Shown here: one piece after another, positions 21,926-59,758 of the stretch
Layout: the number at the start of each line of letters is the position of its first letter
How positions within the stretch are numbered: the stretch's first letter is position 1
Source of the DNA: an uncultured Verrucomicrobiota bacterium
GTDB taxonomy: Bacteria > Verrucomicrobiota > Verrucomicrobiia > Opitutales > Seribacteraceae
Direction: 5' to 3'
DNA length: 64,000 bases
NCBI GenBank assembly: GCA_902615835.1
Contig: CACMQL010000005.1
Coordinates: 1-64,000 of the forward strand
Program-made: the position numbers and the translations under genes
Notes under the pieces: generated by a model
Told to the model about the DNA's origin: nothing
Database searches by the model: none
The model's input: only the letters and a program-made list of their open reading frames with translations

Positions 21926-22465
21926 CTACAAATCTTTCCAATAATCCAGGGATTCGTCACCCCACTTAGCCAAGTCTTTCTTTCCATTTTTCGTAACGAT
22001 GTTGCCCTTTTGATCAAGCACCACGAGAAAGGGAATAAACTCCACACCCGTTACCTTGCTTGCATGTTTTGCCTCTTGGGATTGATTTTCCATAGCTAGC
22101 CAAGGCATTCCGTATTTTTTCATGTAGTTCGCTTGTGCTTTCGCACTACCATCTCCCCCGACCAAAATTACTTCAAACTCTGATTCATGCTTATTCCTGA
22201 ATTCTATAAGTTTAGGTGTGAACTTTCTGCAAGGACCGCACCAACTTGCAGAAAAATAAAGGCCCACATATTTTTCTGTAATTTTTTCATAAGGTACTTT
22301 TTCACCTGAAAGATTCAGGAATGTTTCTGGAAAAACAATTTGACCATCTGGCAAGTTTTTTTCTTCCCCAACAAGAATGAAACTTATTGAAAGGAAACCA
22401 AGCACTATTACAAAAGTAATAGAAGTATTATAATTATTTAACATAGGTATATGATAGATTGCCAA
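21926..22465 (-). CDS. Thioredoxin-like (tryparedoxin/nucleoredoxin type) exported protein
   Basis: N-terminal hydrophobic segment, 'YVGLYFSASWCGPCRKFTPKLIEF' WCGPC active site, 'PFLVVLDQKGNIVTKNGKKDL'. Confidence 0.88.
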   Translation of the reverse strand: MAIYHIPMLNNYNTSITFVIVLGFLSISFILVGEEKNLPDGQIVFPETFLNLSGEKVPYEKITEKYVGLYFSASWCGPCRKFTPKLIEFRNKHESEFEVILVGGDGSAKAQANYMKKYGMPWLAMENQSQEAKHASKVTGVEFIPFLVVLDQKGNIVTKNGKKDLAKWGDESLDYWKDL

Positions 22466-22503
22466 ACCCTGCAGTCCAAGGGTTTAAATTCATTAAAGGG
22501 AAT

Positions 22504-23634
22504 TTATTCTTCCTGAAGGAGGGTTAAGAAATCATCCAAATAAGCCCGGGCTACTCTCTCCAGTTCGTACTCCTTAGAACGATTCCATGCCGCAATTCCG
22601 GTTTCCCTTTTTTGGCATTCCTCGAGGGTAATGACTTTAGCTAAAGCCGCACTTATGGCATCTTCCATGTTTATATTTTTACTCTCGTTCAGACAAAACC
22701 CTTCGTTCCCAAAAGAAATAAAATCCGTAAAACATGGAAGCTCGGAAACGACGGGGATACATCCGCAACTCATGGCCTCTAAAACTGCCAAACCAAAAGT
22801 CTCGCCATCTTTGGCTTCGGATGGATAAAAAAAGAAGGTCGCTCTCTCCATTTCTTTTTTCAGCTCGTCTCGATCAAAAAGAGGTTCAATGAAATCAACT
22901 TTATTATGACCTGTTTTCAAAATACTCCCCAAACGGTCCCTAAATCTTTTCCCTCCTCCACCCTGCTCTTCTTTCCAGGGTCCGACTATTCGAAGAGTCC
23001 ATCCTCTCGCAATTTCTTTTGGTAATTTTCCCCAAGCTTGCAAAAGAGATTCCACCCCTTTTTCAGGGTGTATCCGACCGGCGTATAAAATTACTTTTTC
23101 CTTATGATTAAGATTTTCTTTTTGAGACGGCTGCCAAGTCAAGGGGTAGGGTAAGGTCTTTACTTTACATGCTTGTGCAGGTATCTGTCCTTTGGAAATA
23201 TCTTCAATAGATTTACTTGGCACCTGGAAACGACTGGCTTTTTGATATAGCCTAAGCTGCCCCTTTGGATACCGACCGACATGAACATACAACTTACCAC
23301 AGTTTTCTTTTGGAAATAGGATCGGCGCCCAAAAAGCATGAGTTACCAAAATGTCAGCACTGGCCATGACTTTCCTTGCTCGCAATACATAAGGAAACTC
23401 AAGCAACTTCAATAAATAACGATTAGATACTGCATTGGCACCCCGGACTCTTGTATATTTTACATCTCCGACCGTCTCTTCATTTGGTAAATCCGGAGCC
23501 ATGCTAGAGACATGTGTTACTTCATGCCCTCTCCTGGCAAATTCTCTACCCAGAGAATGCCAAGCTGCTTCAATCGCTCCGCCTTTACTGGGAGGCACGG
23601 GGAGAAACGCACCCTGCAAAATATTAATTTTCAT
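22504..23634 (-). CDS. Glycosyltransferase family 4-type (GT-B)
   Basis: 'GGAIEAAWHSLGREFARRGHEVTHVSS', 'VILYAGRIHPEKGVESLLQAW', 'FFYPSEAKDGETFGLAVLEAMSCGCIPVVSELP'. Confidence 0.9.
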   Translation of the reverse strand: MKINILQGAFLPVPPSKGGAIEAAWHSLGREFARRGHEVTHVSSMAPDLPNEETVGDVKYTRVRGANAVSNRYLLKLLEFPYVLRARKVMASADILVTHAFWAPILFPKENCGKLYVHVGRYPKGQLRLYQKASRFQVPSKSIEDISKGQIPAQACKVKTLPYPLTWQPSQKENLNHKEKVILYAGRIHPEKGVESLLQAWGKLPKEIARGWTLRIVGPWKEEQGGGGKRFRDRLGSILKTGHNKVDFIEPLFDRDELKKEMERATFFFYPSEAKDGETFGLAVLEAMSCGCIPVVSELPCFTDFISFGNEGFCLNESKNINMEDAISAALAKVITLEECQKRETGIAAWNRSKEYELERVARAYLDDFLTLLQEE

Positions 23635-24677
23635 GAATCGGTGCTGCTAGTCGCTTCCTCAAAAAGCCCAATAATTTTCTCGGCCGTTTTGGAAATATGC
23701 AGTTTATCACGAAAACACTTTCTTGCATTTTGAGACTTTCCTTGTGTGCTTCCCCTAACCCAATGATCCACCAGTTGGTCAATACCCCTTTGCGTATTAT
23801 CTTCGACCATGCCTGCGTCATATTCCAAAATTTCATGATACAGGTTTACTTTATTTGAGATAAGAACTGGGGTACCCACCGAACATGCTTCCGCCACCAC
23901 CATACCGTAGTTTTCCTGATGGGACGGAAGGATCAAACAATCAGCTGCCCGTAAGGCACCCCACTTCAAATCGCCCTCCAGCATATCTGTCCAAAGAACT
24001 TGCTTCTCTATGTGCTTAAAATCTTTACGAAGCGTTTTATAAAAAGCGTCATCTTCAGAAATCGGTGCGGCGATTACTAGTAAATCATTCGTATTTTTTT
24101 GTCTGGCAAAAGCTTTCAATAGAAGATCCAGCCCTTTCTTAGGATGGATACGACCCATATACAAAAGAAACTTTTTCCCTCTAGTTTGGGGAAATTTAGT
24201 GTTAAAATTAGATACCTGATTTCTGTCATTTCCGGGAGGATCTCCAACTCCGAGACCGGTGACAATTTCCCTGCACCGATATGGCCAGAATGTTTTTTGT
24301 GCGAGCTTTCTTTCCTCTTCGGTGGTGAAGCAGACTGCGTGAGCATGCTCCAAAATTTTCCCCTGTTTCCACCACCAGTAAAGTTGCTTTTTGATATGCT
24401 TAAGCGGGTAAGCTTTTTTAAACCACGGATCCAGCATACCATGAGGAAAGATGATGTAAGGTATCTGTTTTTTTTTCCAGTTGTTGTATGCTGAAACTCC
24501 TGGCCATTGCCATAGTCCGTGAGCAATTATAACACCACCGGAAACTTCGGGGTTAGTTTTTTCTGATGTTTGAGAACTGATGCCTAAATTAAAAAAAGCT
24601 TCTGATAAATCGTGGGTTGATTTTGCAACTCCCCCTGTTTGTAAACTGGTAGAGTGAACCAACTGATGTATATTCAA
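23631..24677 (-). CDS. Glycosyltransferase family 4-type (GT-B), TTG start in this ORF
   Basis: 'LLYMGRIHPKKGLDLLLKAF', 'ADCLILPSHQENYGMVVAEACSVGTPVLIS'; overlaps next GT gene by 4 nt. Confidence 0.9.
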   Translation of the reverse strand: MNIHQLVHSTSLQTGGVAKSTHDLSEAFFNLGISSQTSEKTNPEVSGGVIIAHGLWQWPGVSAYNNWKKKQIPYIIFPHGMLDPWFKKAYPLKHIKKQLYWWWKQGKILEHAHAVCFTTEEERKLAQKTFWPYRCREIVTGLGVGDPPGNDRNQVSNFNTKFPQTRGKKFLLYMGRIHPKKGLDLLLKAFARQKNTNDLLVIAAPISEDDAFYKTLRKDFKHIEKQVLWTDMLEGDLKWGALRAADCLILPSHQENYGMVVAEACSVGTPVLISNKVNLYHEILEYDAGMVEDNTQRGIDQLVDHWVRGSTQGKSQNARKCFRDKLHISKTAEKIIGLFEEATSSTDS

Positions 24678-24689
24678 CGCAAAGAGGAA

Positions 24690-27600
24690 TTATTCGTAGA
24701 CAAAATCTCTTTGACTTTGAGGGTTCCAAAAAGTTTTCCCTTCCGAGAGGAGTGTTTTGCCAACTGGCTCGTAAATATAATACCCTACCCATCTAGAGTT
24801 TTCTTGCTCATAAAGCCATAAAAGCCAATCGGGCTTGCGATTGCTCCATATTTCTTCCGTGGTCCAAAACCACCCAAGTCCTGTTATATATAACCATACT
24901 TCATCCTCCTTAGGACCATGGACATAAATCCAACCTAAATCCGAATGATAGATCCAAGGAAAGTTGTCGTCATTAAAATATCCCAACCATTCTAAGAATT
25001 TCCAACTTGGGGATGCTTCCAATGTCTGAGCATTTCTGGTTATGGATACTCCTCCGAAACGATCGAAATAACGGGAATCTCTCATAAGTTGAGATATGAT
25101 TTGCTCGGTGCTCTGACCGTGAAATTGAAGAATAAGGTCATCTGAAATTACCCCTGAGTTTTCCTGCCAAAAACTTGAAATCAAAGCGGCTGTTTTGAAA
25201 TAATCTCTTTTGGGGGCTGCCCCCCAAATCATATCCATATTATTTATTGTTTCTTCAGCTATCATGTTTACCACAAACAACACGGCTGGTTCCCCATTCC
25301 TAAAGGTAGGAGGCACTTGTTGAGTATTTTGATTGTTTGTATTTCCAAGTAAGGAAGCAAAAGGATTTATATTACCTCCTCCGCCACGCCCACCGGTGTT
25401 TCCTCCACCAAAACCGAAGTTGGAATACATGGACAACTGTTGCATCATCATTAACTGTTGGTCTCTCTGGGCTTCCTGCGAATTGGGATCGAAGACAGAA
25501 ATTCTATAGGAACCTTGTGTTTCCTGCTGAATAGTGGGGTTCTTGCCGTATTTATTTTGGTAGATGATGCGGACAAAATCTCGGCGGTTCTTTTCATAAT
25601 TGGTAAAGCGGTCAGGTGAATTAGAAGGCGGAGTGAGAGGCGGTACTTTTCCATGAATATCCGTGTATTCGCTTGACGATAACATGTCATCCACAAAGGA
25701 GCCCATACTGAAGGCACTGCTAGGAAAATCGGATGGATCCTGATCATTTGTCAGGAACAAATTCTCTTGGCGCAGGGAAAAACCGTCTCCATCTTCGTCG
25801 ATGCTTCCATCTTGTCCGTAATTGGGAATTGCGGAATAAGTGTCCATGATTTCACGTATTTTTAAGTAATCAGGATACTGGCCAATCATAATTTGGTATC
25901 CGGCAATTGCATCTATCATATTCTGAAATATCTCTCGCTCGGAGAGGTATGACGCCCAGCGTAGAAAATCATCGTTTTCGAAAAGATAGGTGGACTGAGC
26001 TTCCATGTTTTCGGTTATTGCGGTATTAACCTCCTGTTCGTTAGCACTTTTTCCAAGTAAATCTTTGTATGTTTGATTAACCGTCGCTTTGGGGTCACCT
26101 CCAAGATTAGGTTCAGTCACCTTTATTGTGACAACATCTGACAAAACAGTAGGCGTGAAGGCTTGACCGTTCACTAAGTTGTCTTCCATAACAATCGCCC
26201 CCAATATCTCGATTTGTCGAGAGTCACCCGCAAGGTTTTGATCGCACACCCAATCTGCGAGGAAAATCCCAGTTCCCCAAGCCGTCTCCTGAGCAACACA
26301 TATAAATTCTCCGTTGCCCAAAACATTCATTTGCCTCGGAGTAAGGTTTAAATTGGGGTTTGTAATGCTAGAATCTCTTCCGAGTAGACTTTCTACATTG
26401 CTCCCTGTGATATCTATTCTGATCTTAATGCTTTGTTCATGGGCATACTCAGCATTATTAACCGGCACTTTAATGGTTGCTTCCGGGAGTAGAACACTGG
26501 ACTGAACATTTCCGGTCTCGGATAATGCAATTCTATTCTCATCCTTGTCGACTCCCACAGCAAGAACTTCCCATTCTCGGTTGACCTGAGTGATCGTTGC
26601 GTCCGAGTAGGGCTTAAATTTAAAATAATAAGGCTTTTCTCGGTCAATGTAGGCAAGTTTACCATTTAAGAAAAACTCAACTCGATTCATTCCTCCGTCG
26701 GGATCATCGTAGTTGGCCAGAACCACGAGTTCAGATCCAATAGTTGTGGAGCCATGTCTGGTAAGGTCAGGATAGATCATGGTCGATCCGTCAGGCAAAA
26801 GACCAATTTTTGGCAGGACTTCCAATCTTTCAGTGTAAAGGGTTTGTGAACCGTTAAAATTTTCAGCAATTACAGCAATGGTGTAATTTCCTTCTGAAGT
26901 AGGTTCAAAAGAGCTTGAGAATGGCCATGTCGTATCACGTTCAATTAAAATGGCATTCACATAAAAAGACACCGCTGTGAATTCATCATCATTTACATTT
27001 GATTCAAGATGGAGCGGAATAAGAGAACCGGAACGGTAAACATTCACCACTTGTAGCTCTGACCAAACGCTCAGAAGATTTTTATCAATATCACTTAACA
27101 ACCCCTTTAAATGCAATTCGTCTTCATTGGTTATACTGAAGACCTGATAGTTTTGCGTGGTAGTCTGCACCCCATTAGAAAATCTCACAAATTGTCCCGG
27201 AGAGAGTTGTTGCAAAAATATTGTGCTTAATCCTTTGATTACGGTGAATAGCTCGGCTTGGTTATTGGAGGCATTTCTCCTTTGGGAAAAAGAGGTTTCA
27301 ATCATTGACACTTCTTCATAAAATTGGACCTCCCCGGTAACACTCGGGAAAATTGAGCCTAAGGTTGGTTCTTGGGAATTTATTTGGGTATCAAATCCCA
27401 CCAATGTTTTTTCGATCTGTGACACGGCAACATTCCCCTCATTATCCCTTGCACTGACAAAAATGTTGTAGGCTCCAGATTCCATTGGGTCCCAAATCCA
27501 GAAATAAGGCGGTTGCGTGAAAGTTTGCTCTACCACGCCATTAATTACAAATAAAACCTCTTCGACCACCCCTCTTCCACTGATTGAATCGGAAAAATCT

Positions 27601-30600
27601 GAAACGGTGGCACTCAGAAAGAGGCTTTGTTCTTCACTGTAAGATTCATTTACCGGATCTAAATTGATTACCGGTATGTTATTATCTCCCGGTGAAATCT
27701 TCACCACAATTGCAGGTGAAAATGTTTCATTACCACTAGTGTCTATAGCACTAGCTGTCACAAAATTAACATCTTGCAGGAAAGGCGGGTTAAAATCCGC
27801 AATATAATAGCTGCTATCCTTTGGCTTACTCTTGTCATAAGGGATCACATCTCCATATTTGTAGCCGTTAAGGTAGAACTGCACACCAACCAGTGAACCG
27901 TCAGCATGATTCGCACTTGCCACAAATCTAGTCGAAGAAAACTTGCTTATGGTAATGTCTCCCAGAGGATAAATAACATTGATGGTCGGTGCTGAAGTTG
28001 CATTTTCAACCACCTTCATGTTAATTGTCTCGGTAGAAAACTTTTGCACCCCAAAATTATCGATAACCATCGGTAATAGTGTGTAATTACCCTCGCTCTG
28101 GGGGATAAATTCGAAACTAAATATTCCATTCTGGTGGAGGGTTGAGTTCTCATCGTATTGCACAAAATATTCGCCATCCGTTGTAGTTAGCATCTCTCCA
28201 TTTGAGAACAGATAAACTTTTTCTGGATATCCATCGGCATCCGAATAAGCAGCCAAATTAATGGTTGAAGCTTCTCCGCGCTTAAAGGTCACGATTGATG
28301 GAGTTCCATTGTCTGTTCTTGGTATAGGAAATATGGATGGGGGGTCTTTTTCCGAGGAAGCCACCAGTGTAATGGTTTTATGCTTAAATTCTTCAATGTT
28401 GGTAAGACTGGGATGGTGGGTGCCTGACTCATTACCCATTTTATCTCTGGCAACAAACGCTAGATAATGATCGCCCTGGTTATACCCCCTGAAATCAGCA
28501 ACATAAGTGAAACGGCCATTACCGTAATCTTCACCGAAACCCACCGATTCCTGATCTATAAAGAACTCGACCTCTTTGATTCCATACTCAGAAGTTGCTA
28601 AAACACTGAACATCGAATCCGAACCAATTTGCATCTCTGTTGAGATGTCACCGGAAAATCTAGATATAATTCCACTACCATAAAACTCTTCAATTCCAAG
28701 AACGGCAGGCTCGGTAAAGAAAATATTTCCATCGAAATCTTTAACCGCAAAAGAAACATTCATTCTTCTTGGGTTATCAGCAATTAGCTGAAATGTGTAG
28801 GGTGAGTTGTATCTAACATCGTTCACCAACCCGTCTACAACCAACGAGATATTTTCAATATTCTCAGAATTAACGGAAGGGGTGGCCGTTAGGTAAATAG
28901 GTGCCCGGGTGAAGCCTCCACTCAGGGTCGCTTTATGATAAATTCCTTCTATGTCAAAATTAATGTCTTCGACTCGGCTGGTGCCAAAATTTGCGGGAGC
29001 TAGGGGCAATCTATCTAAAGTGATTGTTTGCCCATCAGGATCATCTATGTCTAATGGCGGATTGAAAAGAGGTGCTATTACATAACCCTCCCCTGACATG
29101 GGGGTGCCATCAAATCTCTTTTTCAGGGAATAAAAAGTTTGAGTACCACTAGTAATCCCAATGTTGGCATAGATGGAAGATGCATTGAATTGAGCAATCC
29201 CGGTTTGATTGGATTCTTCATCAACCAAAAGTCTTTCAACTTGAGATGCGGTAATCTCAGAGTCTGCTTCCAAAGTTTGCAGGAAAGGAGTCACTACAAC
29301 TTCGGGCACCCAGATTCGCCAAGGCCTGTCATACCATCGGGTTGTTACTTGGGCAGGGGTACCAATCCGAACGACCCTTCTAACCGGAGTAATTTCAAGC
29401 GTTAAATTAGCACTACTGTAGCCAACCCCCCCATCATTCACGAATATATTTGGATTAAGTCTGCCATTTTCATCAATTTCAGCCACTAACACAGCACCGG
29501 ACCCATCTCCAGATATGCGAATTTCAGGAGTGCCGACGAATGTGTGATCCAAAGAATCTTGTAAGGTTAATGACTTGATTGTTCCATCCTGAATAACCGA
29601 TGAAATCTGAGAATCTTTAAATCTTAAACTTTTCAATTCTGCGGGAACGCTCGCCTTGGAGACTTCGCTTCCGTCGGTTACAGTGAAAGTTTTCGGCACC
29701 GTTGCAACAATGTTTCCGCTATTATCTCTTCCCTCCGCATGCACGGTGAATTGACCGGTTTGGTTGGCTTGATGGTAATAAATATAATTAACATCTGATT
29801 GCAAAATACCCTGAGTTCGAAGAATTTCTTCCCCCAGCATTTCTCCATTTAAATAAAATTTGATTCCTTCAAAACTTGCATCCAAATCACGACCGGTTGC
29901 AGAAAAAATTAAATGGGAAGTATCCGTGATATTCTGAAAGGGAAGATCATTAAGGGAAATATCGGGAGATAATTCCTTGTAGTCGGACACTTCAATTTCG
30001 ACAATTTCACTCAGAGCTACAGGTGTTCGAGTGCCGGAATTAAAAAATACCACCTGAAGCCTGTGCTTTCCAACTGATGTAAAGCCAGGGCCCATGGAAA
30101 ATGTAAAGCGGTGACTTAAGTACTCTCCATCCAGGGGATCGAGTGGATTTTGCACGCCATGATGATTCATGGCTCCAATCATTTCTCCGTCTAGCATGAC
30201 TAAGGCATAAGTCTTACCAATTACTTCGGAAGAAACATTCAAATCCACAATTAAGGGAATAAAAGAAAGAGGAGAGAAAGGGGTACTGTGGCTGGACTTC
30301 GGGAAACGGATGATTATGTCTTCGGTCTTTACATTGTTTGACGCTGGAAAAATATTTAGAGTTTGAGATTGCTTGCCTAAGGAATTTGTAAAACCTTTAT
30401 CAAATGTTCCAGCCTGATTGCCTTGAAAATCTCTGGCGATGAAGGAGATGGTATGTTGTCCACTGGAAATACCGGTTAGATCAAGATATTTACTAAATTC
30501 ATTGCTTCCATAATTGGGAAACGCCTTACCTTGAGATTTTCCGTCGATAAAAAATTCAACCTCAGCTATGCCAAACTCTGAAATTGCTTCGCCAGAAACA

Positions 30601-33185: not shown

Positions 33186-36100
33186 AATCTGATCCGCCTG
33201 ATATCATGGTAATCGACGATATCCTGCCTAAAGTATCGACCTCATAGCTCGCAATTGCTCCATTACCCGACCCTGTGTAGTCCGTGATTTGCAAAAAGCC
33301 GTTATTGTAACCTGTCCCTGACTGCAATATTTCAATTTCTCCGATGCCTCCAATCAGAAAAGCTTTGGCCTTGGCCATTTGCATGGGTCTGTTTTGAAGA
33401 ACGGCTCCATCTTCTCGGCTAATTTCATGCTCAAGCAAGTTGGATGATTTGGTTGAAAAAACAATACTCATGCCATCCGAACTGATGGCGGGTTCCCTGC
33501 TTGGCATATTCCCTCCCACCCCGTCTTGACTCTGGCTAACCCTGATGATGGATGTATGAGGATTCACGGTTCCGGTTCTGTATATCTCCCCTTCAGGATT
33601 GACTAAATGTGCCTTCAGAACCGCAACTTGCAGGGGAGAAGGATAAGAAGGATCAGCCACCAAGACTACGGTTGGATTCTGATAGTTTTTCCCGGGACTG
33701 ACAATTTCTATGGCATCCGGAATTAATTGTCCGTAAGGATCAAGCCCGCCTTCGCGGATTGTCAAAATTGCTCCTTCGCCCACCCCCTGGGTGTCCAGAA
33801 TCTGAATGGATGGGTTGCCAAAGTATCCGACTCCTCCGCTTTCCACAACAATGTTCGCAATACCAGCCTGCCCGACAAGGTTTGTGGCCTTGGATCTAAA
33901 GACCACATAGTTACCATCTCCGCTGATTTGTACCTGATCAGACGGGCCACCCTCCGTCGTTTTATTCATGTCAGTCACGCTCATAAGGGTAATTTTATTG
34001 GCATTTGTGCTCCCTTCATCATAGAGGAAAACATCTCTCAGTAAGTTGTTGTCCGTATTCACCAAATTTGTGGCGTCTGAAGAAAATGCGATCTTGTCAC
34101 CCAGATCACTCACGGATGGCTGATAACTATCCAAATTACCTGCAGTGACCGTGTAAATCTCGTCAACCTGGCCCGACACCCTTTTCCAGAGATGAATTTG
34201 TTTGTAATTGCCGGGGGCTATTCCCTTGGTGGTAAGATTACTAGCCCTTGACTCGAAAGCGATGATTGAACCGTCCGAATTGAGGTTTGGATAAAAACTG
34301 GCTCCATTTGCTTCCATCCCACTAACCGGGTTGATCAAACGGACCAGCCTGTCCTCATTCACAAAATAGACAAATATATCTTCCACTCCATTCTTATCGG
34401 ATGGTACAAGATCACTAGCTCGAGAATGAAAAACAATCGTGGTGCCATCCGCACTTATCCTGGGACGCAGGCTGCTACCATTTCCTCCTCCATCTTCAGT
34501 CAATGATTTACTTATCAGCAACGCACTCCGGTTGGAAATTCCTTGGTCAAAAACATTGGCCAGGTAAACCTGCTGGTTTCCTTGCTCGTCAGTTAGTTCA
34601 TATGTTACCCACCTGCCATCGGCACTGGTATCCGGTCTTTGCCTTGGTGGAGATTTTCTCGCATAGGCAAGTTGGAGTCCAAGTTCTTCTCGTGCTTGAT
34701 TTAAAGTATTAATTTCGTTGAGAATACCAGGTACATTAAATTCCAAGGCCGTGTCTATAATCACATTTATCTGCTCTTCGAGGTCAAACATCTGGTTGAT
34801 GATCGACGAGGATTCATTATTCTCATCGTAATCAATGATGTTAATTTGACCCTTGTTCTTTGACTTCAGGGTAATGCTCGGGGTGTTGTTGAGCACGAAT
34901 ACCTCAGCCGTCGCACCCGTTTCTAGAATACGTACTAGAAGATAATAGTCCCCCTCCAGGTTGTCAGGCATCTGTTGAATCCAATTAAGGTTGATTGTTT
35001 CATTGGGACGCAAATTGGCCCCCAACGCTCCGCCCCCCAAATCGAATTCCCGGAGAATAAAATCTTCGGTATTAAAGCTGTCATCTTCGGAAAGGGCGAC
35101 GACAACCGTGCAGTTATCTTCTTCACGAACGGGAACATTACCATAATTTCTCAGGGAGAATCCCAGTTTTACGGGGTCAAGGCCCGAGAAGGCACCCGTC
35201 TCGCCACTGAAGCTATTCTGAACCACTCTTAGATCCACCGTCCCGGGATTTACGATGAAGGAAAATAGGTGACGATTGTTGGACTCGTCCAGTTCTTCAA
35301 TTAAATCACCTTGTGGATTTATGAGGATTTCATCCTCTGGAGTATCGGCAATAATTTGTATGGAATAAGTTCCACTTGCATCATCAGGTAGTTGGAGATT
35401 GGAGATTTCAAATGGAATTGACGCACCTTGCATAATTGTGGGTTCCGTTACTCCATCGGACCCCGGTAAGAGAATTCTCTCCGTATCCAGACTCAGTGCT
35501 TTGGAGATTAAGTTGTTAGACCCAGGTTCGGTCAGGTCACCTGCAAACAGCCTCGCTTCCACTGGGAACCTTACACCTGGCTGGGTCATTGCCTGTCCAA
35601 CATTGGAAAGGATTCCGTCCACTCGGATTCGGTCGCCTGGTAAAAATGTAGTGTTTAGTTGCCCGGTGAGAGGATCCCGCGAGCGAATTTGAGGATTACT
35701 CTCTATAGTTAGATCGGGCACATGAAGATAAATCGAATGGGGGCTGGTGGTATTATTCGTCAAATTTATTTCCAGGGAAGGGCTGGATACGGTTGCCACC
35801 AAACTCCATGTGTTGTCGTCGTTGCTGTATGGTGTATTGTCACCCCCAATGAACCATTTTTGAGATTCGGACCAGGGCATTTGAATATTTACCTGTCCAA
35901 TATTAGTTGAAGTATTATCCAATCTATTTTCTGCAGGAGCCGGATTCGTGAAGCCATCCCAACTTTGGACATGCTTGAAGATGATGTTTCCATAAGGATC
36001 GATGAGTTCAAGTGTGGCCGTGACTGTTTCCCCCACCACCGCTGAAGAATTTCCTTCGTGATTTACAATTGCCTGCACAGAAAACACATCGCCAATTTCA

Positions 36101-36249
36101 ACAAAAGTTGGGGGAGTTACCACAAAGCTGATTGATAAATCCGTAGTGTTTTGTCCAAGGGAATGTCTGCAAAGACCGCATATGGCTATCAAAACCAACA
36201 GGAAATTTTTAAGAAGAATTGAGGTTTTCGGAATCATCTTATTTTCCAT
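33019..36249 (-). CDS. Giant exported protein 2, N-terminal part: signal peptide, CARDB-like domains, TolB/PD40-type beta-propeller, GxGY repeats (true start probably ATG at 36237, ATGA overlap with upstream stop)
   Basis: 'MIPKTSILLKNFLLVLIAICGLCRHSLGQ' signal peptide; CARDB-like 'VDLRVVQNSFSG...LGFSLRNYGNVPV'; propeller 'LRPRISADGTTIVFHSRASDLVP', 'QPSVSDLGDKIAFSSDATNLV'. Residues after 'DNPGGG' (LWFSGRSHQDEPGLRTGRCQGRGWKNPSRGDDRTRNWIR) look like out-of-frame translation. Confidence 0.88.
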   Translation of the reverse strand: MENKMIPKTSILLKNFLLVLIAICGLCRHSLGQNTTDLSISFVVTPPTFVEIGDVFSVQAIVNHEGNSSAVVGETVTATLELIDPYGNIIFKHVQSWDGFTNPAPAENRLDNTSTNIGQVNIQMPWSESQKWFIGGDNTPYSNDDNTWSLVATVSSPSLEINLTNNTTSPHSIYLHVPDLTIESNPQIRSRDPLTGQLNTTFLPGDRIRVDGILSNVGQAMTQPGVRFPVEARLFAGDLTEPGSNNLISKALSLDTERILLPGSDGVTEPTIMQGASIPFEISNLQLPDDASGTYSIQIIADTPEDEILINPQGDLIEELDESNNRHLFSFIVNPGTVDLRVVQNSFSGETGAFSGLDPVKLGFSLRNYGNVPVREEDNCTVVVALSEDDSFNTEDFILREFDLGGGALGANLRPNETINLNWIQQMPDNLEGDYYLLVRILETGATAEVFVLNNTPSITLKSKNKGQINIIDYDENNESSSIINQMFDLEEQINVIIDTALEFNVPGILNEINTLNQAREELGLQLAYARKSPPRQRPDTSADGRWVTYELTDEQGNQQVYLANVFDQGISNRSALLISKSLTEDGGGNGSSLRPRISADGTTIVFHSRASDLVPSDKNGVEDIFVYFVNEDRLVRLINPVSGMEANGASFYPNLNSDGSIIAFESRASNLTTKGIAPGNYKQIHLWKRVSGQVDEIYTVTAGNLDSYQPSVSDLGDKIAFSSDATNLVNTDNNLLRDVFLYDEGSTNANKITLMSVTDMNKTTEGGPSDQVQISGDGNYVVFRSKATNLVGQAGIANIVVESGGVGYFGNPSIQILDTQGVGEGAILTIREGGLDPYGQLIPDAIEIVSPGKNYQNPTVVLVADPSYPSPLQVAVLKAHLVNPEGEIYRTGTVNPHTSIIRVSQSQDGVGGNMPSREPAISSDGMSIVFSTKSSNLLEHEISREDGAVLQNRPMQMAKAKAFLIGGIGEIEILQSGTGYNNGFLQITDYTGSGNGAIASYEVDTLGRISSITMISGGSDYDLENTFISVDNPGGGLWFSGRSHQDEPGLRTGRCQGRGWKNPSRGDDRTRNWIR
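33139..33147 (-). repeat. Homopolymer G9 tract (C9 on + strand) at the junction of two overlapping ORFs
   Basis: Minus strand ...GAC AAC CCC GGG GGG GGG CTC TGG...; with eight G it reads AAC CCC GGG GGG GGC TCT GGT TTT CAG = NPGGGSGFQ, continuing into the 24690-33185 ORF. Confidence 0.95.
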
Positions 36250-51197: not shown

Positions 51198-51239
51198 TCT
51201 CGAATATAAGTGAATTACAGATTCATTGCAAAAAAATCA

Positions 51240-54200
51240 TTATTCACCAAGACCATCCCCATCCTTGAAGTTTCTCCTAATGGTACCTGTGGGTGTTAAG
51301 ATTACGGGATCCTTGAATATAGATTGGGGGCTTATGTTTTGGATAGTTTCTCGGACCGGGGATCCACCCCGGGATACTATGCTTGCACTCACAAAAATGA
51401 GTAGATTTCTTTTGTGATAACTTTCAGCAGAGGACTGAAATAATCTTCCCAAAAGAGGAATATTTCCAAGAACCGGAACCTTATCATTAACCGTCTTGAC
51501 TTCTTCGCGGGTTAATCCACCAATAATTACGGTAGCACCATCAAAGATGGTTACCTGTGTTTGGACTTTCCTAACCGAGAAAATAGGCATTAAAATACCC
51601 GAGGGAGCTAGAACCGTAGCCGTAGAAAAACCTGTGCCAATGGTCCCGGAGGGTCCACCATACTCAACAAACCCGTCAAATTCGGTAACCTTTGGTTTTA
51701 AATCTAAATTAATCGAATTGTATTTTTCGATGGTTGGGGTGACTTCCAATACCACACCCACTTCGCGAAACCCGGGGTTTTCATCTTCTGGAGCCACGGT
51801 ATCAAAGGACGGAGTCGCAGATTGAATGGTTATTCCACCCCCTACTCCACCACCAAGGCCTCCCAGTCCTCCGCCACCCCCACCTGCCGCTCCGGGTGCT
51901 TGGGCGGGCTGATAGTCCGTTGGGTAGATAAACTCCTGGGCCACAGTTATCGTGGCAAGCTGACCATCCATGACCGTTACGCGGGGAGCACTAAGAAGAT
52001 CGGTTCCCTGTTTTCTTTTGAGTGCATTAATTAAAATACCTGCCTGAAAGTCAGGGAGGATGGATTGGCCGCCTATTGAAAGACCATTAAAATTTTTCTG
52101 AACATCCAACAAGGGTGAAACCCCTGATCCGATCCCTATTTTACCAGGCAAGGTTGGTGTGGGGTTTGGAATAACCCTGTCAGCATCCGGGTTGTCCGGA
52201 TAACTGATGGTAATGTCACGGGCAATTCCACTGGGTGAATGGGCTTCAGCAAGGGTGCGGGTATTACCTCCCATATTTTTTTCATAGACTGCCTTGGGCC
52301 TTCCTCGGGAGTCTAGAACCGGCATTCCAGTGGTTGGATCCACTTCAGGTACGGGATTATCGAAGCTGTATTTCCAGTCAAATGTAATCTCGTCCAAAGC
52401 TCCTTCCTGCACTTCCAAAAATTTGGTTTCAATTTCAACCTGCCGGCTGGAGTCTTGGTCTAATTTAGCCAGGATACGCTCGATCAAATCAAGAGATCTT
52501 CGATCATGCGTAACAATCATTTGAAAACCGTCAAAGACAAATTTATGGCCTTTGCTATCATCGAAAGGAATTCCTGCTCCCTCAAGAAATGCTTTAATCT
52601 TGAGACCCGTATCATCTGCCCCCCCGCCACCTCCTGCGGGTGGTGGGGCAAACGGATCCGCTGCTCCGCCACCCATGCCACCGCCACCACCGCCTGTCAT
52701 CCGGTTAATGGTGCCTTGAGTAACTTCGTAAAATTCAGTTTCCAAGGGTCTGCCCTTAAAGCTTCCTCCCGTTTTGGAAATAACCACTGCATCTGCTCTT
52801 ATGTCGTAAGTCCAGCTTACCATTTCCGTTATCCACTGAATCATCTTTCCCAGTTCCATACTATTTAAGGTAATTGTAACTAAGGGAAACGGCTCGTCAT
52901 CGGGTGGCTGTTTGACGATTATTTGCACTCCCTTCTTCGCAGGATCCTGTTCCGTAAGATCAAATTGCTTAGATTTAAGCATCAATTCTTGCATTGCCTC
53001 GTCTAAAGGGGATTCAAAGAAAGGTACTTCGGGGATTTTGATAAGGGAGAGTTTATCCTCCAGTTCAGATGTCTCATTCCGGGCTTCCTGCACATCTTCA
53101 ATTTGACGGTCAAATACCTTGGGCCGTTCCCATTCCCGTTCAATTTCCTCCAACATTTCCTGCCTTGTTTTTAGGTAACCCAGATAGCTTTCCTGCTGAC
53201 GCATCATGGAAATACGCTTCAACATGTTTTTGGCCTCCAAGTTATCTGAAAAACGAGTTTCTATCGCCCGGTAAGTTTCTGTGGCTCCGGTAAGATCTCC
53301 GTTGATAAACTGAACTTTTGCACGCATCAGGTAGTCCTCGAGTTCGGTTTTTCTATCTTTCCAGTCTGGCGTGTATTCAGTGATATCCCGTCTGTATGGG
53401 TCCTGTTGGTCATCACGGATTCTGTCCGCCATTTTATCTGCTCGCTCTAATTCTTTTTCAACTGCCTTTTCGCCTCTTGATTGTTTAAGCCCCGGCCTTC
53501 CGAAAGTAAGGGTATCTCCCTGTATATCACGGTCCTGATAAAAGCCTGTTTTGAACTCTTCAAGATGTTTTTTGGCAGCGTCCCAGTCTTTAATCTCTCG
53601 AGCATCTTCGGCTTTTTCCAGGTGGATTCTGTTTTTTATGAGGGAGGCTTCGAGAATGATTGGCCAAGTCATGGTACTTGGTTCTAAAAAGTTTTTTATC
53701 TTGTAAAGAATTCCGTCTGCCTTTGCATATTCTTTATTTTTAATTTCTTTAGTAGCTTCTTCGAGCATTTCTTCTGCTAACATTGCCTGTTCAATGTTTT
53801 TGGCCTGTGCTTTTTGCATCTCTTCGTCGAAATTTATTTCATCACCTTCCCCCAATGTTTCCGTTTCTGCCTTTCTACGAGATTCTTCTATTTCCTTATA
53901 ATCAAGGACAAGTTTTTGAACATCAGGCACTTTACCCTTCAGCATGGCTTCCCCCATTTGATACCAAATGACCTGTTGTTTGGCCTGATAAAGATCACTT
54001 ACGAGTGCAATCGTCGCGGTATTGGCAGGTAACAAAGACAAACCTTCGTCGATCTGTTGAATCGCCTGATCATAATTTCCCTGGGCACTATTTCTCCTTG
54101 CTCGTAAAAGAAGTCTTTCTGCTTCTTTGGTTGTGGATGCTATTTTAGCACGCTCCTCTTCCATGAGCCTTTCTAAATCAGGCTTGGCGTCGTCATCCGG

Positions 54201-54761
54201 CAAACCTGATTTTGCTCTTATTTCTGAGAGGTCTTTTTTTGCCTGATCCAGTTCTTCAATCAGTTTACCAACCAAGGATGCGTCCTTGGGGCCATCTTTT
54301 GAAAGCACCACTTCTCTCTGGATTTTTCTTTCAGCCAATTCTTGGGCCACATTTTCACGATATTTTTCAAGAAGTTTACTGGCCAAAGAGTACTCTTCCT
54401 GAGACATAGCCAACTTCGCCTGTTCGTAATAAATTTTAGTTTCTTCCTTACGAATCTGATTTAAATAAAACTTGTTCTGCTCCGTTTGCTGGATGTTCTG
54501 CAAAGCGGCGATGGCGATCCTCTCTGCTTTGTCAAGTTCCTTCGATGCGACTAATCTTCGAATATTGCCTAGCAGGCTGACCAAATTAGTTTGTGAGTTG
54601 AAGTTGTAAACAGCCTCACCATCTGAAACAGGACTTGGGGGCGGTGACTGCTCAGGAAAGGCAATGGAAACAGATTTTTCCTGGGACCCTTGTTGCCCAA
54701 AAATTTCCACAAAATTGGTGGAAATAACTAATGCAAACGCTAAAACAGAACCATTGGACAT
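51240..54761 (-). CDS. Type II/IV secretion-type secretin (Amuc_1098-like) with long TPR/coiled-coil N-terminal region
   Basis: C-terminal secretin domain 'QVEIETKFLEVQEGALDEITFDW...FQAGILINALKRKQGTDLLSAPRVTVMDGQLATITVAQEFIYPTDY...VGVVLEVTPTIEKYNSINLDLKPKVTEFDGF...TVIIGGLTREEVKTVNDKVPVLGNIPLLGRLFQSSAESYHKRNLLIFVSASIV'. Confidence 0.93.
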   Translation of the reverse strand: MSNGSVLAFALVISTNFVEIFGQQGSQEKSVSIAFPEQSPPPSPVSDGEAVYNFNSQTNLVSLLGNIRRLVASKELDKAERIAIAALQNIQQTEQNKFYLNQIRKEETKIYYEQAKLAMSQEEYSLASKLLEKYRENVAQELAERKIQREVVLSKDGPKDASLVGKLIEELDQAKKDLSEIRAKSGLPDDDAKPDLERLMEEERAKIASTTKEAERLLLRARRNSAQGNYDQAIQQIDEGLSLLPANTATIALVSDLYQAKQQVIWYQMGEAMLKGKVPDVQKLVLDYKEIEESRRKAETETLGEGDEINFDEEMQKAQAKNIEQAMLAEEMLEEATKEIKNKEYAKADGILYKIKNFLEPSTMTWPIILEASLIKNRIHLEKAEDAREIKDWDAAKKHLEEFKTGFYQDRDIQGDTLTFGRPGLKQSRGEKAVEKELERADKMADRIRDDQQDPYRRDITEYTPDWKDRKTELEDYLMRAKVQFINGDLTGATETYRAIETRFSDNLEAKNMLKRISMMRQQESYLGYLKTRQEMLEEIEREWERPKVFDRQIEDVQEARNETSELEDKLSLIKIPEVPFFESPLDEAMQELMLKSKQFDLTEQDPAKKGVQIIVKQPPDDEPFPLVTITLNSMELGKMIQWITEMVSWTYDIRADAVVISKTGGSFKGRPLETEFYEVTQGTINRMTGGGGGGMGGGAADPFAPPPAGGGGGADDTGLKIKAFLEGAGIPFDDSKGHKFVFDGFQMIVTHDRRSLDLIERILAKLDQDSSRQVEIETKFLEVQEGALDEITFDWKYSFDNPVPEVDPTTGMPVLDSRGRPKAVYEKNMGGNTRTLAEAHSPSGIARDITISYPDNPDADRVIPNPTPTLPGKIGIGSGVSPLLDVQKNFNGLSIGGQSILPDFQAGILINALKRKQGTDLLSAPRVTVMDGQLATITVAQEFIYPTDYQPAQAPGAAGGGGGGLGGLGGGVGGGITIQSATPSFDTVAPEDENPGFREVGVVLEVTPTIEKYNSINLDLKPKVTEFDGFVEYGGPSGTIGTGFSTATVLAPSGILMPIFSVRKVQTQVTIFDGATVIIGGLTREEVKTVNDKVPVLGNIPLLGRLFQSSAESYHKRNLLIFVSASIVSRGGSPVRETIQNISPQSIFKDPVILTPTGTIRRNFKDGDGLGE

Positions 54762-54844
54762 TTTCGGATACGAAGGGGCAGAATAATGAATAAATAACTA
54801 AGTATTTCTCTCATGAATGTTCGCATATGGTCAACTTAGAAAAT

Positions 54845-56119
54845 TTATGGTGAAACTAGTTCAATCTCCTCAAACTGATTTGGAATCGAGTTCGCTTTTC
54901 TTAACTTTACTGATTTTCTATTTATATCGAAATCAAGAATTGTGTAATTTCTGCCGTTGTATGTAATCTCTTTACCGGTGTCGGTTTGAGAAAGAGTAAT
55001 TTGATATGGATCTTCCTTGCCTATTTTAAAGTATAGTTCCACCTCGAACTGACCTAAAAATACATTTTCCATAATGCTATTTATTTCAAAGGGTTTTAAG
55101 CCCAAGGCATGATCCTCAATGAGAGCCCTGCCCACTGGTTTTACTCCGCCATTTTTCTGAGTCACATTTTGTACCGTAAAATATTTGAGTGATAGCAACT
55201 TTTCTGAGCTATTGTTATCTACTTCTGTCAATGACGGTCTTCCGGGCTTTGGGTCTTCGATTAACTTGTATGATTTATTAACCTCCAATCTGTTCCTTAT
55301 CGGGCGACCAAACTCTTCAGTTAATTTACTATCTTCAATGTAGGGAGAGTTTCCAATCCAGCTGGTTAGCCTGAACCGATAAGGCTTTTCTGAAAAGCTT
55401 ATGATTGAAGCTCCAAAAGGCTCTTTTTCTTCCTCTTCGATTGGGGCTTCTGGTAATGTTGTGGTTAGTTCATTGTCTATTAAATATATAAGTGGAGGAG
55501 TAAAAAGCTCGTAAACCGTATTATTTCTATCGGATGAAATTTTCTTCCAATCTGGTCTTTTCCTGCTTTTTGATGAAAAATTTTTATCTGTTATTCTTTG
55601 ATAAAAATGGGGTTGCTTTGTCCGTAATATGGTTAGATCGGCATTATCATCTAAAACATAAATTGGTGCTCCGATAATTTTTTTTATTGTACGCATCTGC
55701 ACGGGAGCAACCCGACCATCAATGTCGAGTAAGAGTGGTGTAGTGGAATTACTCCAATTTTGTGAAATTACGACACCCTCTTTAGGTTTAATTTTACCAT
55801 TTAAAATTTTCCCGTCTTTTAATTGAATTGTAACTTCAGCCTTTCGCTTAAAAATTAACTTGGATATCTCAATTCTACTAAAATTTTCTTCAGATGTTTT
55901 ATAGAATATAAAATTACCGGGCATCAGATTATTTTTTAATTTCGTCTCCAGGACGACCCCGTTTGAGGATCTTGCCCAAGCGGATTCGCTTTCCTTAGGG
56001 TTATGTTCGACACCGAAATCCGTAACTTGAGTTAATTGAAAGCCAAAAACCACACCAAGTACAAGAAGTGCAGTTAACAATAATAACTTATCGTAATGTT
56101 TAGCGAACACCTGCTTCAT
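54845..56119 (-). CDS. Membrane-anchored protein of pilus-like cluster (Amuc_1099-like by position)
   Basis: 424 aa, N-terminal TM 'KLLLLTALLVLGVVFGFQL'; lies between the Amuc_1100-like gene and the secretin, overlapping the former by 20 nt. Confidence 0.6.
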   Translation of the reverse strand: MKQVFAKHYDKLLLLTALLVLGVVFGFQLTQVTDFGVEHNPKESESAWARSSNGVVLETKLKNNLMPGNFIFYKTSEENFSRIEISKLIFKRKAEVTIQLKDGKILNGKIKPKEGVVISQNWSNSTTPLLLDIDGRVAPVQMRTIKKIIGAPIYVLDDNADLTILRTKQPHFYQRITDKNFSSKSRKRPDWKKISSDRNNTVYELFTPPLIYLIDNELTTTLPEAPIEEEEKEPFGASIISFSEKPYRFRLTSWIGNSPYIEDSKLTEEFGRPIRNRLEVNKSYKLIEDPKPGRPSLTEVDNNSSEKLLSLKYFTVQNVTQKNGGVKPVGRALIEDHALGLKPFEINSIMENVFLGQFEVELYFKIGKEDPYQITLSQTDTGKEITYNGRNYTILDFDINRKSVKLRKANSIPNQFEEIELVSP

Positions 56120-57230
56120 TTAAAATTATCTGTGCTTCCTTTAACAAATTTTGATGACCTGACTTCTCCAGCCAATCATACAAAACTTCAGGATGAGGAT
56201 CTTCGTGCTTTGCAAGAAGAGAAATAATATCTGTTAGGTCTCGTTTTGATTCAAGAATGTATTCGAGTACCAAATCGATGCGTGAATCAACTTTGCTGAC
56301 AATGGGCACGAATTTATTTTCAGGTTTAACATTGGTGGCAAAAGGGTCGGGGGAAAAAGTAGATTGGTCGAAATTGTTGGACTGGTTTTCCTCCGCTGGA
56401 TAAATAAGTATTTCGCGCAATAAGAAAGGGGGACGTAATTTGTTTAATAGTTTTCTTAAGGGAATTGTCTGAGTTTTTAGACTGATTTTAAAAGCATAAC
56501 TTTCAATTTCTTTAAGATTCCGAAGAAGAAGGGGAGATATTCCAGAAAGATCCAAAGCATCTGAACCAATATTAGCCTTATCAACTTCACCTACAATTTC
56601 TCTTTTAATTGATATAATATCAATTGAATGGTTTGCATCAGTACAAACGGACAAATGATCAATCAACTCGTTAATTATTTCCGATTGTGTCCCAAGTTTT
56701 CTTGCTTCGGTAACTGAGAAACTAGGCCAAATACCATCATAGGAAGTGAACGAAAATCCAAATGTTTCATCAGGATTTTCCTGTTTTTCAGATTGAAAAA
56801 TACTGGAGGATGGAGAAGCAGCTGTGGATGAAGGAAGTGTGATAAATGAGTCTCTACACTTTTTTCTCAACCTGGAAAAAAGCCTGGTTATAGCAGCATT
56901 TACGGATTCTGCAGATTTTGTCATCCATTTCTTACTGACATTCTCCTTCTCATTTACTAAATAATTGGCAAAATTAGACAGATCTTTCTCTGTAGATGAT
57001 AAATGAGTTAAGTCAGATTTTATTATATCATAATCTGAAGGAACATATGCGTAGTCAGTTTTATCAGCATTCAAATCCTGTATATCGTTTTCTACTTGAT
57101 CTATCTTTTTTAGTAGTTCTTCCGTCCGAGATGAAAATTGTAAAGAGAAATAGATTAAAACAAAAAAGGAGATTATCGCAATTATTGTAGTGACAAGAAA
57201 TAAAGAATTCTGCTTTGCAAAAGATTTCAT
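56100..57230 (-). CDS. PilN/PilO-like membrane protein, Amuc_1100-like
   Basis: N-terminal TM + coiled coil ('LFLVTTIIAIISFFVLIYFSL...RTEELLKKIDQVENDI'), middle 'WPSFSVTEARKLGTQSEIINELIDHLSVC', C-terminal 'YAFKISLKTQTIPLRKLLNKLRPPFLLREILIYP'; same architecture and position as Amuc_1100 (from memory). Confidence 0.7.
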   Translation of the reverse strand: MKSFAKQNSLFLVTTIIAIISFFVLIYFSLQFSSRTEELLKKIDQVENDIQDLNADKTDYAYVPSDYDIIKSDLTHLSSTEKDLSNFANYLVNEKENVSKKWMTKSAESVNAAITRLFSRLRKKCRDSFITLPSSTAASPSSSIFQSEKQENPDETFGFSFTSYDGIWPSFSVTEARKLGTQSEIINELIDHLSVCTDANHSIDIISIKREIVGEVDKANIGSDALDLSGISPLLLRNLKEIESYAFKISLKTQTIPLRKLLNKLRPPFLLREILIYPAEENQSNNFDQSTFSPDPFATNVKPENKFVPIVSKVDSRIDLVLEYILESKRDLTDIISLLAKHEDPHPEVLYDWLEKSGHQNLLKEAQIILNEAGVR

Positions 57231-58981
57231 TTTAAGTCCAAGACTATTTCGTATTCATAATGAGAAAAAAACCGATTAAATAAGTCTCCTTTTCCTTCGA
57301 TTGAAAATGTTTTTCTTTGAATTTTACTCAAAAGGGGAATTTCACTGAAATAAGCCGTAAGTTTTTCCTTCTTTGTACGGTCTAATTCAATCAATTGATC
57401 TCTTATTTCATCTTGCTTTGTCTCTTTATTTAGGCGAACCAAGTACCTTCCAGACAGAGTTAGAATAAAGTTTTCATTCTCTCCTTCCTTGCTTATCCCA
57501 TATGGCTTATTAAGTGGTTTTGCCAGTGAAAATGAATCTAGCCAAATATCTCCAATCTCTTCATTCGTGATTATGCCTTGAATATAATTAATTACATCTT
57601 GAATGACCCAGCATCCCTCAATCTTTCCTTTTAGTGGGGCTTGTGATGTTTGTATTTCTGAAATAAAGTTCTGTGTAAATAACAACTCACTATGAAGGAG
57701 TTTTTGCTCCGCAATTTCTTCTTCTAGAATTGATAATTTATTGCTTATCTTATCCTCATATTTACGCAGCTCCGCTTGATAATTGTGGTTTTTTATAATT
57801 GAAGGCAAAGGAATAAGACTAATTATAAACAAGGCGAAGGAAATAAAAGGAAGCTTTTGTTTCAAACCCAATGATTTAATTTTGGACTCAGGTAGTAAAT
57901 TAATGGTGGACGAAGAGCCACCCGCATCAGTTGGATTTTCATTAAATATAGTTCTTGCTAAACCTACTGCTTCGCTAGTCATAAATGGGAGTAAAGGCTT
58001 AATTTTATCCTTAATTTCACTTCCTACGGTAACGCTGCTTAGTGGATCAAAATACTCCACTTGTAATTGTTGACTTTCAATTAAATATTGGGCGAGGTTG
58101 GGCAATAAGGCTCCCCTCCCAGTAAGGAAAATTTTCTGGGGAGACTTTCCTTTTTTAAGTCGCTTATATGTAACAATCGATCGTGTTATTTCTTGACTCG
58201 CACGTGCTAAAAACTGATTACTGGCATTCTGTATCACCTCGATCGAAGGATCATCTTCTGCCAGGAGGATTTCCTGTGAAAAATAACCTTTTTTAAGATT
58301 TTCCGCCTTTTCAAAGGTTATACCCAATGCATCAGAGATATTTTGAGAAAGGGCGTTTCCCCCGATAGTGATTGTCCGGATAAGAAAACCGGTTGGGTTG
58401 ATGAATAATAGGGTGGTCGATTTTGCACCGATATTGATGGTCAAAACTTCAGATCGGTCGTCTGCATCTCCCAACAAACCCCTGATCGCACTGTAATCCA
58501 AAACTTGGGCAGGTGTAATTTGCCTGGGAATAAGTCCGAGATTTAGCATTTTTTCCGAAAAATTTTCTGCCATTTCTGGCTTCACGGCAAAGGCAAGCAC
58601 TTCTTCCTCCACGCCGTCATCATCTATAATCTGATAATCCCATATGAGTTCCGACAAGGGGAAAGGCATTTTTTGAGATAGCTCAAAAGCGACAATTTTT
58701 CGTTGTTTTTCCTCATCAACATGAGGTACTCGAATGGTTTTTGTGAGCAACAGGTTACCTGGAAAAATAAACCTGACTTCTCCCTTAAGAGACATTTTTT
58801 CAGATAGTTTCTCCAACCCAGTAACCAACGAATCTAGCCATGCATCCTCCTTGGTTAAATCATGATATAGGGTTTCAAGACCTGATGATTTAAGTAGCAA
58901 CCCTTCCGGGGTTGAGACAAAAATATTTGCGGAAACATGAGAGTTTCCGCAATTGACTATAATTTCGTCCGCTTGTGCCAC
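57227..58981 (-). CDS. PilM-like actin-fold ATPase fused to a PilN-like membrane segment (Amuc_1101-like)
   Basis: 'EIIVNCGNSHVSANIF', 'RKIVAFELSQKMPFPLSELIWDYQII', 'VLTINIGAKSTTLLFINPTGFLIRTITIGGNALSQNISDALGITFEKAENLK', 'KIFLTGRGALLPNLAQYL'; C-terminal TM 'LPFISFALFIISLIPLPSI' and periplasmic part. Confidence 0.85.
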   Translation of the reverse strand: MAQADEIIVNCGNSHVSANIFVSTPEGLLLKSSGLETLYHDLTKEDAWLDSLVTGLEKLSEKMSLKGEVRFIFPGNLLLTKTIRVPHVDEEKQRKIVAFELSQKMPFPLSELIWDYQIIDDDGVEEEVLAFAVKPEMAENFSEKMLNLGLIPRQITPAQVLDYSAIRGLLGDADDRSEVLTINIGAKSTTLLFINPTGFLIRTITIGGNALSQNISDALGITFEKAENLKKGYFSQEILLAEDDPSIEVIQNASNQFLARASQEITRSIVTYKRLKKGKSPQKIFLTGRGALLPNLAQYLIESQQLQVEYFDPLSSVTVGSEIKDKIKPLLPFMTSEAVGLARTIFNENPTDAGGSSSTINLLPESKIKSLGLKQKLPFISFALFIISLIPLPSIIKNHNYQAELRKYEDKISNKLSILEEEIAEQKLLHSELLFTQNFISEIQTSQAPLKGKIEGCWVIQDVINYIQGIITNEEIGDIWLDSFSLAKPLNKPYGISKEGENENFILTLSGRYLVRLNKETKQDEIRDQLIELDRTKKEKLTAYFSEIPLLSKIQRKTFSIEGKGDLFNRFFSHYEYEIVLDLK

Positions 58982-59017
58982 TAAAATTTACAAATAGTCG
59001 TACTGTCTTTGTAAGAT

Positions 59018-59758
59018 TTAATTTCCTGAAGTGGCGGGCAACAGGTAGGCACCTTTCTGAAAATAAGATGGGAATATATGGTGAGCTGGCACCAAGACTC
59101 CACTATTTCCAGAGCTCTTTTCCTCTGCCTGTTGTTTAAATTTGAGCAAGGTTACTTCATCGCGATATTTGTCAAATACTATCGAATTTGATAATTCCAC
59201 AGGAACACCTTCTAAGTGTATTTCTATGGCATAGCCAACGGGGGTTATGTAGCCTGATCCAAACTCATCTTTCTCCGCTACAGCCGCAGGGAACATAAAA
59301 TTTGCATACTTAGTATTCCTGTCTACCTTTATTGTCTTAAACTCTACTTCTGCCCGATAATACTGATAGAACTGCGAGTCCATCAACTGACTTGACCTAA
59401 GGACCTTCTTTTTAAATCCATTACTAAAACATATGTATAGCCTTATTTTCACATCTTCGACAAATTCCGGGTTGAAAGCCTCCTCAATCGTAGTAGGTCT
59501 ATTCCCCTTGAGATTTTCAATCCTTGGATGAGTGATGATATTAAATGGTACTGATATCTTTAACCAGCTATCTGTCTCGGATGTAATCGTAACTTTATTG
59601 GCAATCTTTGCATATTGATCACTTTGTGCATGGAGGCCTACAAAAACGAATTTTAAAAGTAGGCACAGGATTGTAAGAAATGCTATGTTGCTCATTTGGA
59701 TTTCGGGGTTATGGGTTTTGTAATTCTTATCCTTTCTAAACTTGCTACCGAATAACAA
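59018..59758 (-). CDS. Small exported protein at head of pilus-like operon (Amuc_1102-like by position); start probably ATG at 59695
   Basis: Internal Met 22 begins a signal peptide 'MSNIAFLTILCLLLKFVFVGLHAQS', leaving a ~75 bp divergent promoter region before the NUDIX gene. Confidence 0.6.
   Translation of the reverse strand: MLFGSKFRKDKNYKTHNPEIQMSNIAFLTILCLLLKFVFVGLHAQSDQYAKIANKVTITSETDSWLKISVPFNIITHPRIENLKGNRPTTIEEAFNPEFVEDVKIRLYICFSNGFKKKVLRSSQLMDSQFYQYYRAEVEFKTIKVDRNTKYANFMFPAAVAEKDEFGSGYITPVGYAIEIHLEGVPVELSNSIVFDKYRDEVTLLKFKQQAEEKSSGNSGVLVPAHHIFPSYFQKGAYLLPATSGN

Follow-up and report, generated by a model that had tools for sequence, protein, structure and literature searches.

Giant, putatively surface-displayed proteins with a tryptophan-rich C-terminal domain are encoded next to a MUL2-like secretin cluster in Opitutales

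The window analysed here, a stretch of 64,000 nt from an uncultured Verrucomicrobiota bacterium (GenBank contig CACMQL010000005.1; order Opitutales, family Seribacteraceae, hereafter the host family), is contig C5 of the source genome (G000), a Verrucomicrobiota genome of 1.8 Mb that is 61% complete. From position 59758 down to 21926 the window contains eleven genes, every one on the minus strand, among which a secretin cluster resembling the Amuc_1098-1102 (MUL2) locus of Akkermansia is followed by genes for two giant proteins (giants 1 and 2), two glycosyltransferases (GT1 and GT2) and a thioredoxin-like protein. Both giants end in a tryptophan-rich (W-rich) C-terminal domain (CTD). A first-pass annotation, made from the sequence alone, had proposed that these genes form one functional unit, perhaps dedicated to the giants. 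The unit itself is backed by the adjacency of secretin and giants throughout the host family and by a CTD protein encoded after the secretin in four further families; its dedication to the two giants is not supported, as 16 other proteins of the genome bear the same CTD. We favour, with a probability of roughly 0.5, an ancient partnership in which a MUL2-type secretin complex works with a large surface protein that bears the CTD; display through or on the complex would be its likeliest function. The open reading frames (ORFs) and sites concerned are the following.

59018..59758 (-): P1, small exported protein (ORF of 246 aa, start uncertain), positional counterpart of Amuc_1102/MUL2A
57227..58981 (-): PilM-like protein, relative of the Amuc_1101 family (PF11104, E=1.4e-17; NF045709, E=7e-67)
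56100..57230 (-): P3, Amuc_1100-family-like inner-membrane protein (NF038287, best E=2.2e-6, under cut-off)
54845..56119 (-): P4, positional counterpart of Amuc_1099 (N-terminal transmembrane helix, then beta domains; weak Sm-like match)
51240..54761 (-): outer-membrane secretin of 1173 aa, relative of the Amuc_1098 family (PF00263, E=1.2e-34; NF042912, E=2e-118; PDB secretins)
36234..51197 (-): giant 1, 4987 aa (membrane anchor, lectins, metzincin, PKD, LamG, TSP3, Ig-like, two CTDs)
48828..48860 (-): metzincin motif of giant 1, HELGHNFGLHH (residues 780-790), then the SIMG Met-turn
36633..36902 (-): W-rich CTD of giant 1, copy 1 (profile A2, E=8.5e-24)
36240..36521 (-): W-rich CTD of giant 1, copy 2, at the extreme C-terminus (profile A2, E=2.1e-26)
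33019..36249 (-): N-terminal part of giant 2, 1076 aa (signal peptide, PD40 propeller repeats)
33139..33147 (-): G9 run, site of the giant 2 frame change
24690..33185 (-): C-terminal part of giant 2, 2831 aa (five Big_7 Ig domains, W-rich CTD)
24720..25010 (-): W-rich CTD of giant 2 (profile A2, E=9.2e-24)
23631..24677 (-): GT1, GT4-type glycosyltransferase (PF00534, E=7e-22), after giant 2 in family relatives
22504..23634 (-): GT2, GT4-type glycosyltransferase (PF00534, E=7.5e-25), after GT1 in family relatives
21926..22465 (-): thioredoxin/redoxin-like exported protein, optional member (PF13905, E=5e-20)
Contigs C1, C4, C9, C10, C12, C13, C17, C21, C29, C37, C48 and C91 of G000: CTD copies outside the window

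Relatives were gathered by similarity to the secretin and are single-cell and metagenome genomes of marine Opitutales/Opitutia. The order secretin, giant 1, giant 2, GT1, (GT2) recurs at every locus of the host family with a long enough contig, both in the source genus and in genera g2, g3 and g4. Random neighbourhood of giants and secretin in a single genome, which the first-pass annotation had named as an outcome that would refute its proposal, is not what is seen: the adjacency extends across at least four genera. P1 is always the first gene of the cluster in the relatives, the spacing from giant 1 through giant 2 and GT1 to GT2 is usually tight, and the thioredoxin gene is optional, being missing from this place in G018 and G019. 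Many of the relatives' contigs stop just past the secretin or within a giant, which is to be expected of long, repetitive genes. An apparent joint loss of secretin and giants in G032, G035, G003 and G014 was rejected as the product of contig breaks: GT2 and the thioredoxin gene still lie beside flanking genes w15-w16 in G032, G035 and G014, together with the CTD end of giant 2 in G032 and G014, and the G003 contig ends at flanking gene w16. The literature on giant genes in Verrucomicrobiota yielded no description of a secretin-giant pairing. A separate peculiarity was seen in G013, where two full-length Amuc_1098-type secretins (contigs C8 and C55) would reflect either a duplication or a mixed bin, the estimated contamination being 1%.

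Outside the host family, informative and suggestive DNA follows this type of secretin in five families (f2, f4, f23, f24 and f27). The gene right after the secretin codes for a CTD protein in G059, G094 and G133 (f24; the CTD of G133 is weak), in G039 and G100 (f4) and in G165 and G132 (f23), and in G081 and G062 (f27) a CTD protein, the only one of each genome, is encoded three genes after it. The secretin-adjacent protein of G081 and G062 is homologous to giant 2 (E 1e-34 to 1e-38), and the propeller region of giant 2 is shared by the secretin-adjacent proteins of G165, G081 and G062 (E 1e-32 to 1e-38); further secretin-adjacent CTD proteins share the Ig domains of giant 2, some of them with DUF4214. 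A giant-2-like start also follows the secretin in G037 (f2), after which the contig ends. Overall, a CTD protein is encoded 1-3 genes after the secretin in 9/19 informative CTD-bearing outside genomes, against 0.29 expected (P~1e-12 under independence), and the linkage is present in 4/6 families (P~9e-6), although these P values are optimistic and to that extent tell against the partnership, since the genomes are related and G039 and G059, which prompted the hypothesis, are counted. In f27, the giant-2-like gene is directly preceded by a gene for a subtilase with Ig domains (L210:12832-16107 (-), Pfam) or, at L211:3243-6668 (+), by a gene of similar size, which may be another instance in which a protease is coupled to the secretin locus.

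The CTD is a W-rich region of ~90 aa, of which a profile search found 19 copies in the source genome, closing 18 proteins, with copy numbers reaching ~50 in other genomes. It is present in all family members searched and in 39/145 genomes of the order. In 16/16 CTD proteins encoded outside the window the domain lies 0-6 aa from the stop, and several of these proteins have clear signal peptides. Having no counterpart by sequence in Pfam, NCBIfam or PDB, the CTD is, as far as such comparisons tell, an undescribed domain family, new here. AlphaFold models of the three window copies were all-beta, with a pLDDT of 48 that is too poor for a fold search. Type IX secretion in Bacteroidota comprises the giant adhesin SprB and C-terminal domains on secreted proteins. 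The locus is reminiscent of it in pairing a giant, repetitive, putative surface adhesin with a C-terminal domain common to many apparently secreted proteins, but the CTD here is W-rich and the machine is a secretin complex; no type IX type A/B model or other NCBIfam C-terminal model matched the giants or the CTDs. The GlyGly-CTERM and PEP-CTERM regions are likewise C-terminal homology regions that mark numerous exported proteins within a genome (PMC3237569, PMC1569441), from which the CTD differs in lacking a transmembrane helix and basic tail, in being folded-looking over its ~90 aa and in matching no NCBIfam model.

Some CTD-bearing genomes and proteins deserve separate mention. Three of the CTD proteins outside the window exceed 3,000 aa (3157, 3103 and 3232 aa), and a giant open frame of 5451 aa with a CTD is found near position 69519 of contig C155 in G055, which belongs to a different family. 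In G036 (90% complete, 25 CTDs) no full Amuc_1098-type secretin was found, only short secretin-like fragments (L202:10261-11218 (-)) situated away from any PilM cluster.

Judged by profile matches and gene order, the machine encoded in the locus is an Amuc_1098-1102 (MUL2)-type, predicted type-IV-pilus-like envelope complex. The best NCBIfam model for the secretin is NF042912 (Amuc_1098_fam), with 396 bits against a cut-off of 750, which makes it a clear relative and not an equivalog, and that for PilM is NF045709 (Amuc_1101_fam), with 227 bits against a cut-off of 650. Among the P3 orthologues 12/21 match NF038287, the best E value (2.2e-6) being under the cut-off, and the position next to PilM agrees with this assignment. 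P1 had no profile match in PDB or NCBIfam, and its relation to Amuc_1102 (MUL2A), an archaeal-pilin-like protein, is undetectable by sequence. P4 had no PDB match by sequence, and its predicted structure (pLDDT 82, pTM 0.43) includes a small barrel with a weak, partial Sm/Hfq-like match (Foldseek best E=0.05). The gene content and order of the Akkermansia MUL2 locus are known (PMC13174399), and the collinear order 1102-1101-1100-1099-1098 corresponds to P1-PilM-P3-P4-secretin, which is kept through the host family. The present locus differs from it in its longer secretin (1173 aa), in the two giants and two glycosyltransferases that follow, and in that every NCBIfam score is under the curated cut-off. 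For the Akkermansia locus a role in attachment has been proposed (PMC13174399), its secretin is an abundant, major outer-membrane protein (PMC4960237) and its products are enriched in an envelope fraction (PMC5332112). A long extension at the N-terminus brings the secretins of the host family to 1170-1265 aa, whereas those elsewhere mostly have 580-970 aa; the extension co-occurs with the giants.

The giants are of 0.4-0.55 MDa (giant 1, 549 kDa; giant 2, about 3,850 aa), so that their earlier description as megadalton-scale was overstated. Inspection by eye of signal peptides and anchors showed that giant 1 has an uncleaved-looking anchor, in which a basic stretch and a single hydrophobic segment come without an obvious signal-peptidase site in all relatives inspected, whereas giant 2 has an apparent signal peptide, ordinary-looking across the family and mostly ending in an AQ- or GQ-type site. 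Pfam domains of giant 1 include two C-type lectin, a PKD, two LamG, a TSP3 and two Ig-like domains, and those of giant 2 are PD40 propeller repeats and five Big_7 Ig domains; the CTD ends both proteins and is present as two tandem copies in giant 1. Giant 1 also contains the metzincin signature (HExxHxxGxxH and a Met-turn) as HELGHNFGLHH followed by SIMG, with weak matches, under cut-off, to the Pfam Reprolysin models. HELGHN occurs in 10/10 long giant-1 proteins, the motif being retained though the giants diverge to ~30% identity. The giants evolve much faster than their neighbours, with identities of ~30-69% among relatives compared to 54-93% for the secretin.

In the favoured partnership, giant 2 would be the older partner, because a large CTD protein already follows the secretin in several other families, in some of them with the propeller region, and giant 1 would be an addition of the host family, where the partnership may have been enlarged by growth of giant 2 and by the recruitment of giant 1 and the glycosyltransferases. 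The giants would cross the inner membrane via Sec, and the PilM/P3/P4/secretin complex would then carry them through the outer membrane or assemble them on it, with the CTD as a putative recognition or anchoring element. Once displayed, they could bind particles or glycoproteins and then cut them, and the two glycosyltransferases might modify the giants or a partner glycan. A bolder extension, which we consider unlikely, is that the CTD is a new sorting domain read by MUL2-type secretin complexes, in an unrecognised export and display pathway of the Verrucomicrobiota outer membrane. The giant next to the secretin would then be the ancestral cargo or anchor, encoded together with the machine, and dozens of further proteins would use the pathway in trans.

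Several observations weigh against the partnership. The gap between secretin and giant 1 ranges from 42 to 436 nt in the relatives, so the 42 nt of the window is atypical; many families that have the secretin cluster lack the CTD altogether; genes for CTD proteins are spread over the whole genome, and 10/19 informative CTD-bearing outside genomes have no CTD gene beside the secretin. From these last two points it follows that export of CTD proteins cannot depend on adjacency. Moreover, the more complete relatives encode at a separate locus a complete type II secretion system (pilin-like GspG-K, L, M, D, E and F), which could export CTD proteins. The giants might accordingly be exported by this system or by some other general route able to read the CTD, with the neighbouring secretin cluster serving only as a co-regulated surface-attachment module, an account that we hold to be somewhat unlikely. 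GspE and GspF are encoded in the source genome, the 16 other CTD proteins are encoded away from the cluster and many CTD-rich genomes have no CTD gene beside the secretin, all as expected under such a route, but by itself it leaves unexplained a CTD protein beside the secretin in five families, this being the sole CTD in two f27 genomes.

The cluster could instead supply the alignment and outer-membrane components of a genuine type IV pilus, driven by PilB, PilC and PilT from other loci, with the giants as PilY1-like tip or collar adhesins. Homology in secretin and PilM is common to the locus and to canonical type II secretion systems and type IV pili, from which the cluster differs in having no ATPase, PilC/GspF or prepilins: the ORF map and Pfam revealed none of GspE, GspF, pseudopilins, PilB, PilC/GspF or PilT within the locus. 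Most relatives have a PilB1-PilB2-PilC locus and PilT-like ATPases elsewhere, which accounts for the missing ATPases, and the propeller repeats of giant 2, as well as the failure to find a second PilM-like copy in the source genome, agree with a pilus. We nevertheless judge this account quite unlikely, as Pfam at E<=0.1 gave no PilY1 domain (Neisseria_PilC) in giant 1 or giant 2, the giants, at 400-550 kDa, would be big for tip proteins, no pilin was identified in the cluster (the genome was not searched for N-methyl pilins), and PilB and PilC of the relatives' type were not found in the 61%-complete source genome, where only PilT-like, GspE and GspF proteins were seen. Very improbable, finally, is that the giants have nothing to do with the secretin and stay beside it through general synteny alone. 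Synteny within the source genus extends to flanking genes w0-w3 and w15-w28, and adjacency alone is therefore weak evidence there; yet in G033, where w15-w16 are on another contig, the secretin-giant 1-giant 2-GT1 unit is intact, a CTD gene lies beside the secretin in four other families, and a giant is not found by default on the contigs of other families.

In Akkermansia, where the Amuc_1098-1102 machine is both abundant and important, its exported or displayed cargo is unsettled. A physical tie between such a machine and large putative surface proteins with a common CTD would supply a specific candidate substrate and a signal that can be tested, would give marine Opitutales, many of them uncultured, a candidate organ for attachment and proteolysis, and puts a name to an undescribed domain family with up to ~50 copies per genome.

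The tight packing described in the first-pass annotation was largely recovered in the ORF map, including the minus-strand orientation of every gene from 59758 to 21926, the overlaps (ATGA at 57227-57230, 20 nt at 56100-56119, and 4 nt between the glycosyltransferase genes at 23631-23634) and the gaps of 42 nt between secretin and giant 1 (51198-51239), 12 nt before GT1 and 38 nt before the thioredoxin-like gene. An ATGA lies between the giants when the second Met of giant 2 (36237) is taken as its start. Pfam backs the PilM and secretin identities, and no PilB, PilC or PilT gene lies in the locus, as had been noted; the Amuc_1100-like protein is present, at 56100-57230, although not necessarily as the product of the gene adjoining the secretin. 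An Rfam scan of the window found no RNA families, and promoter and terminator scans gave no excess over shuffles.

Giant 2 is not a single frame here but is split into two overlapping ORFs (33019-36249 and 24690-33185) that switch at the G9 run at 33139-33147; no other run of G or C in the window is as long. A phase-variable poly-G contingency locus was considered and rejected, as the run is missing from this place in relatives. With giant 2 intact and free of the G run in both G012 and G024, an assembly error or a recent slip or mutation is likelier. The N-terminal part is ~48% identical to the intact giant 2 of G012 and the C-terminal part 69%.

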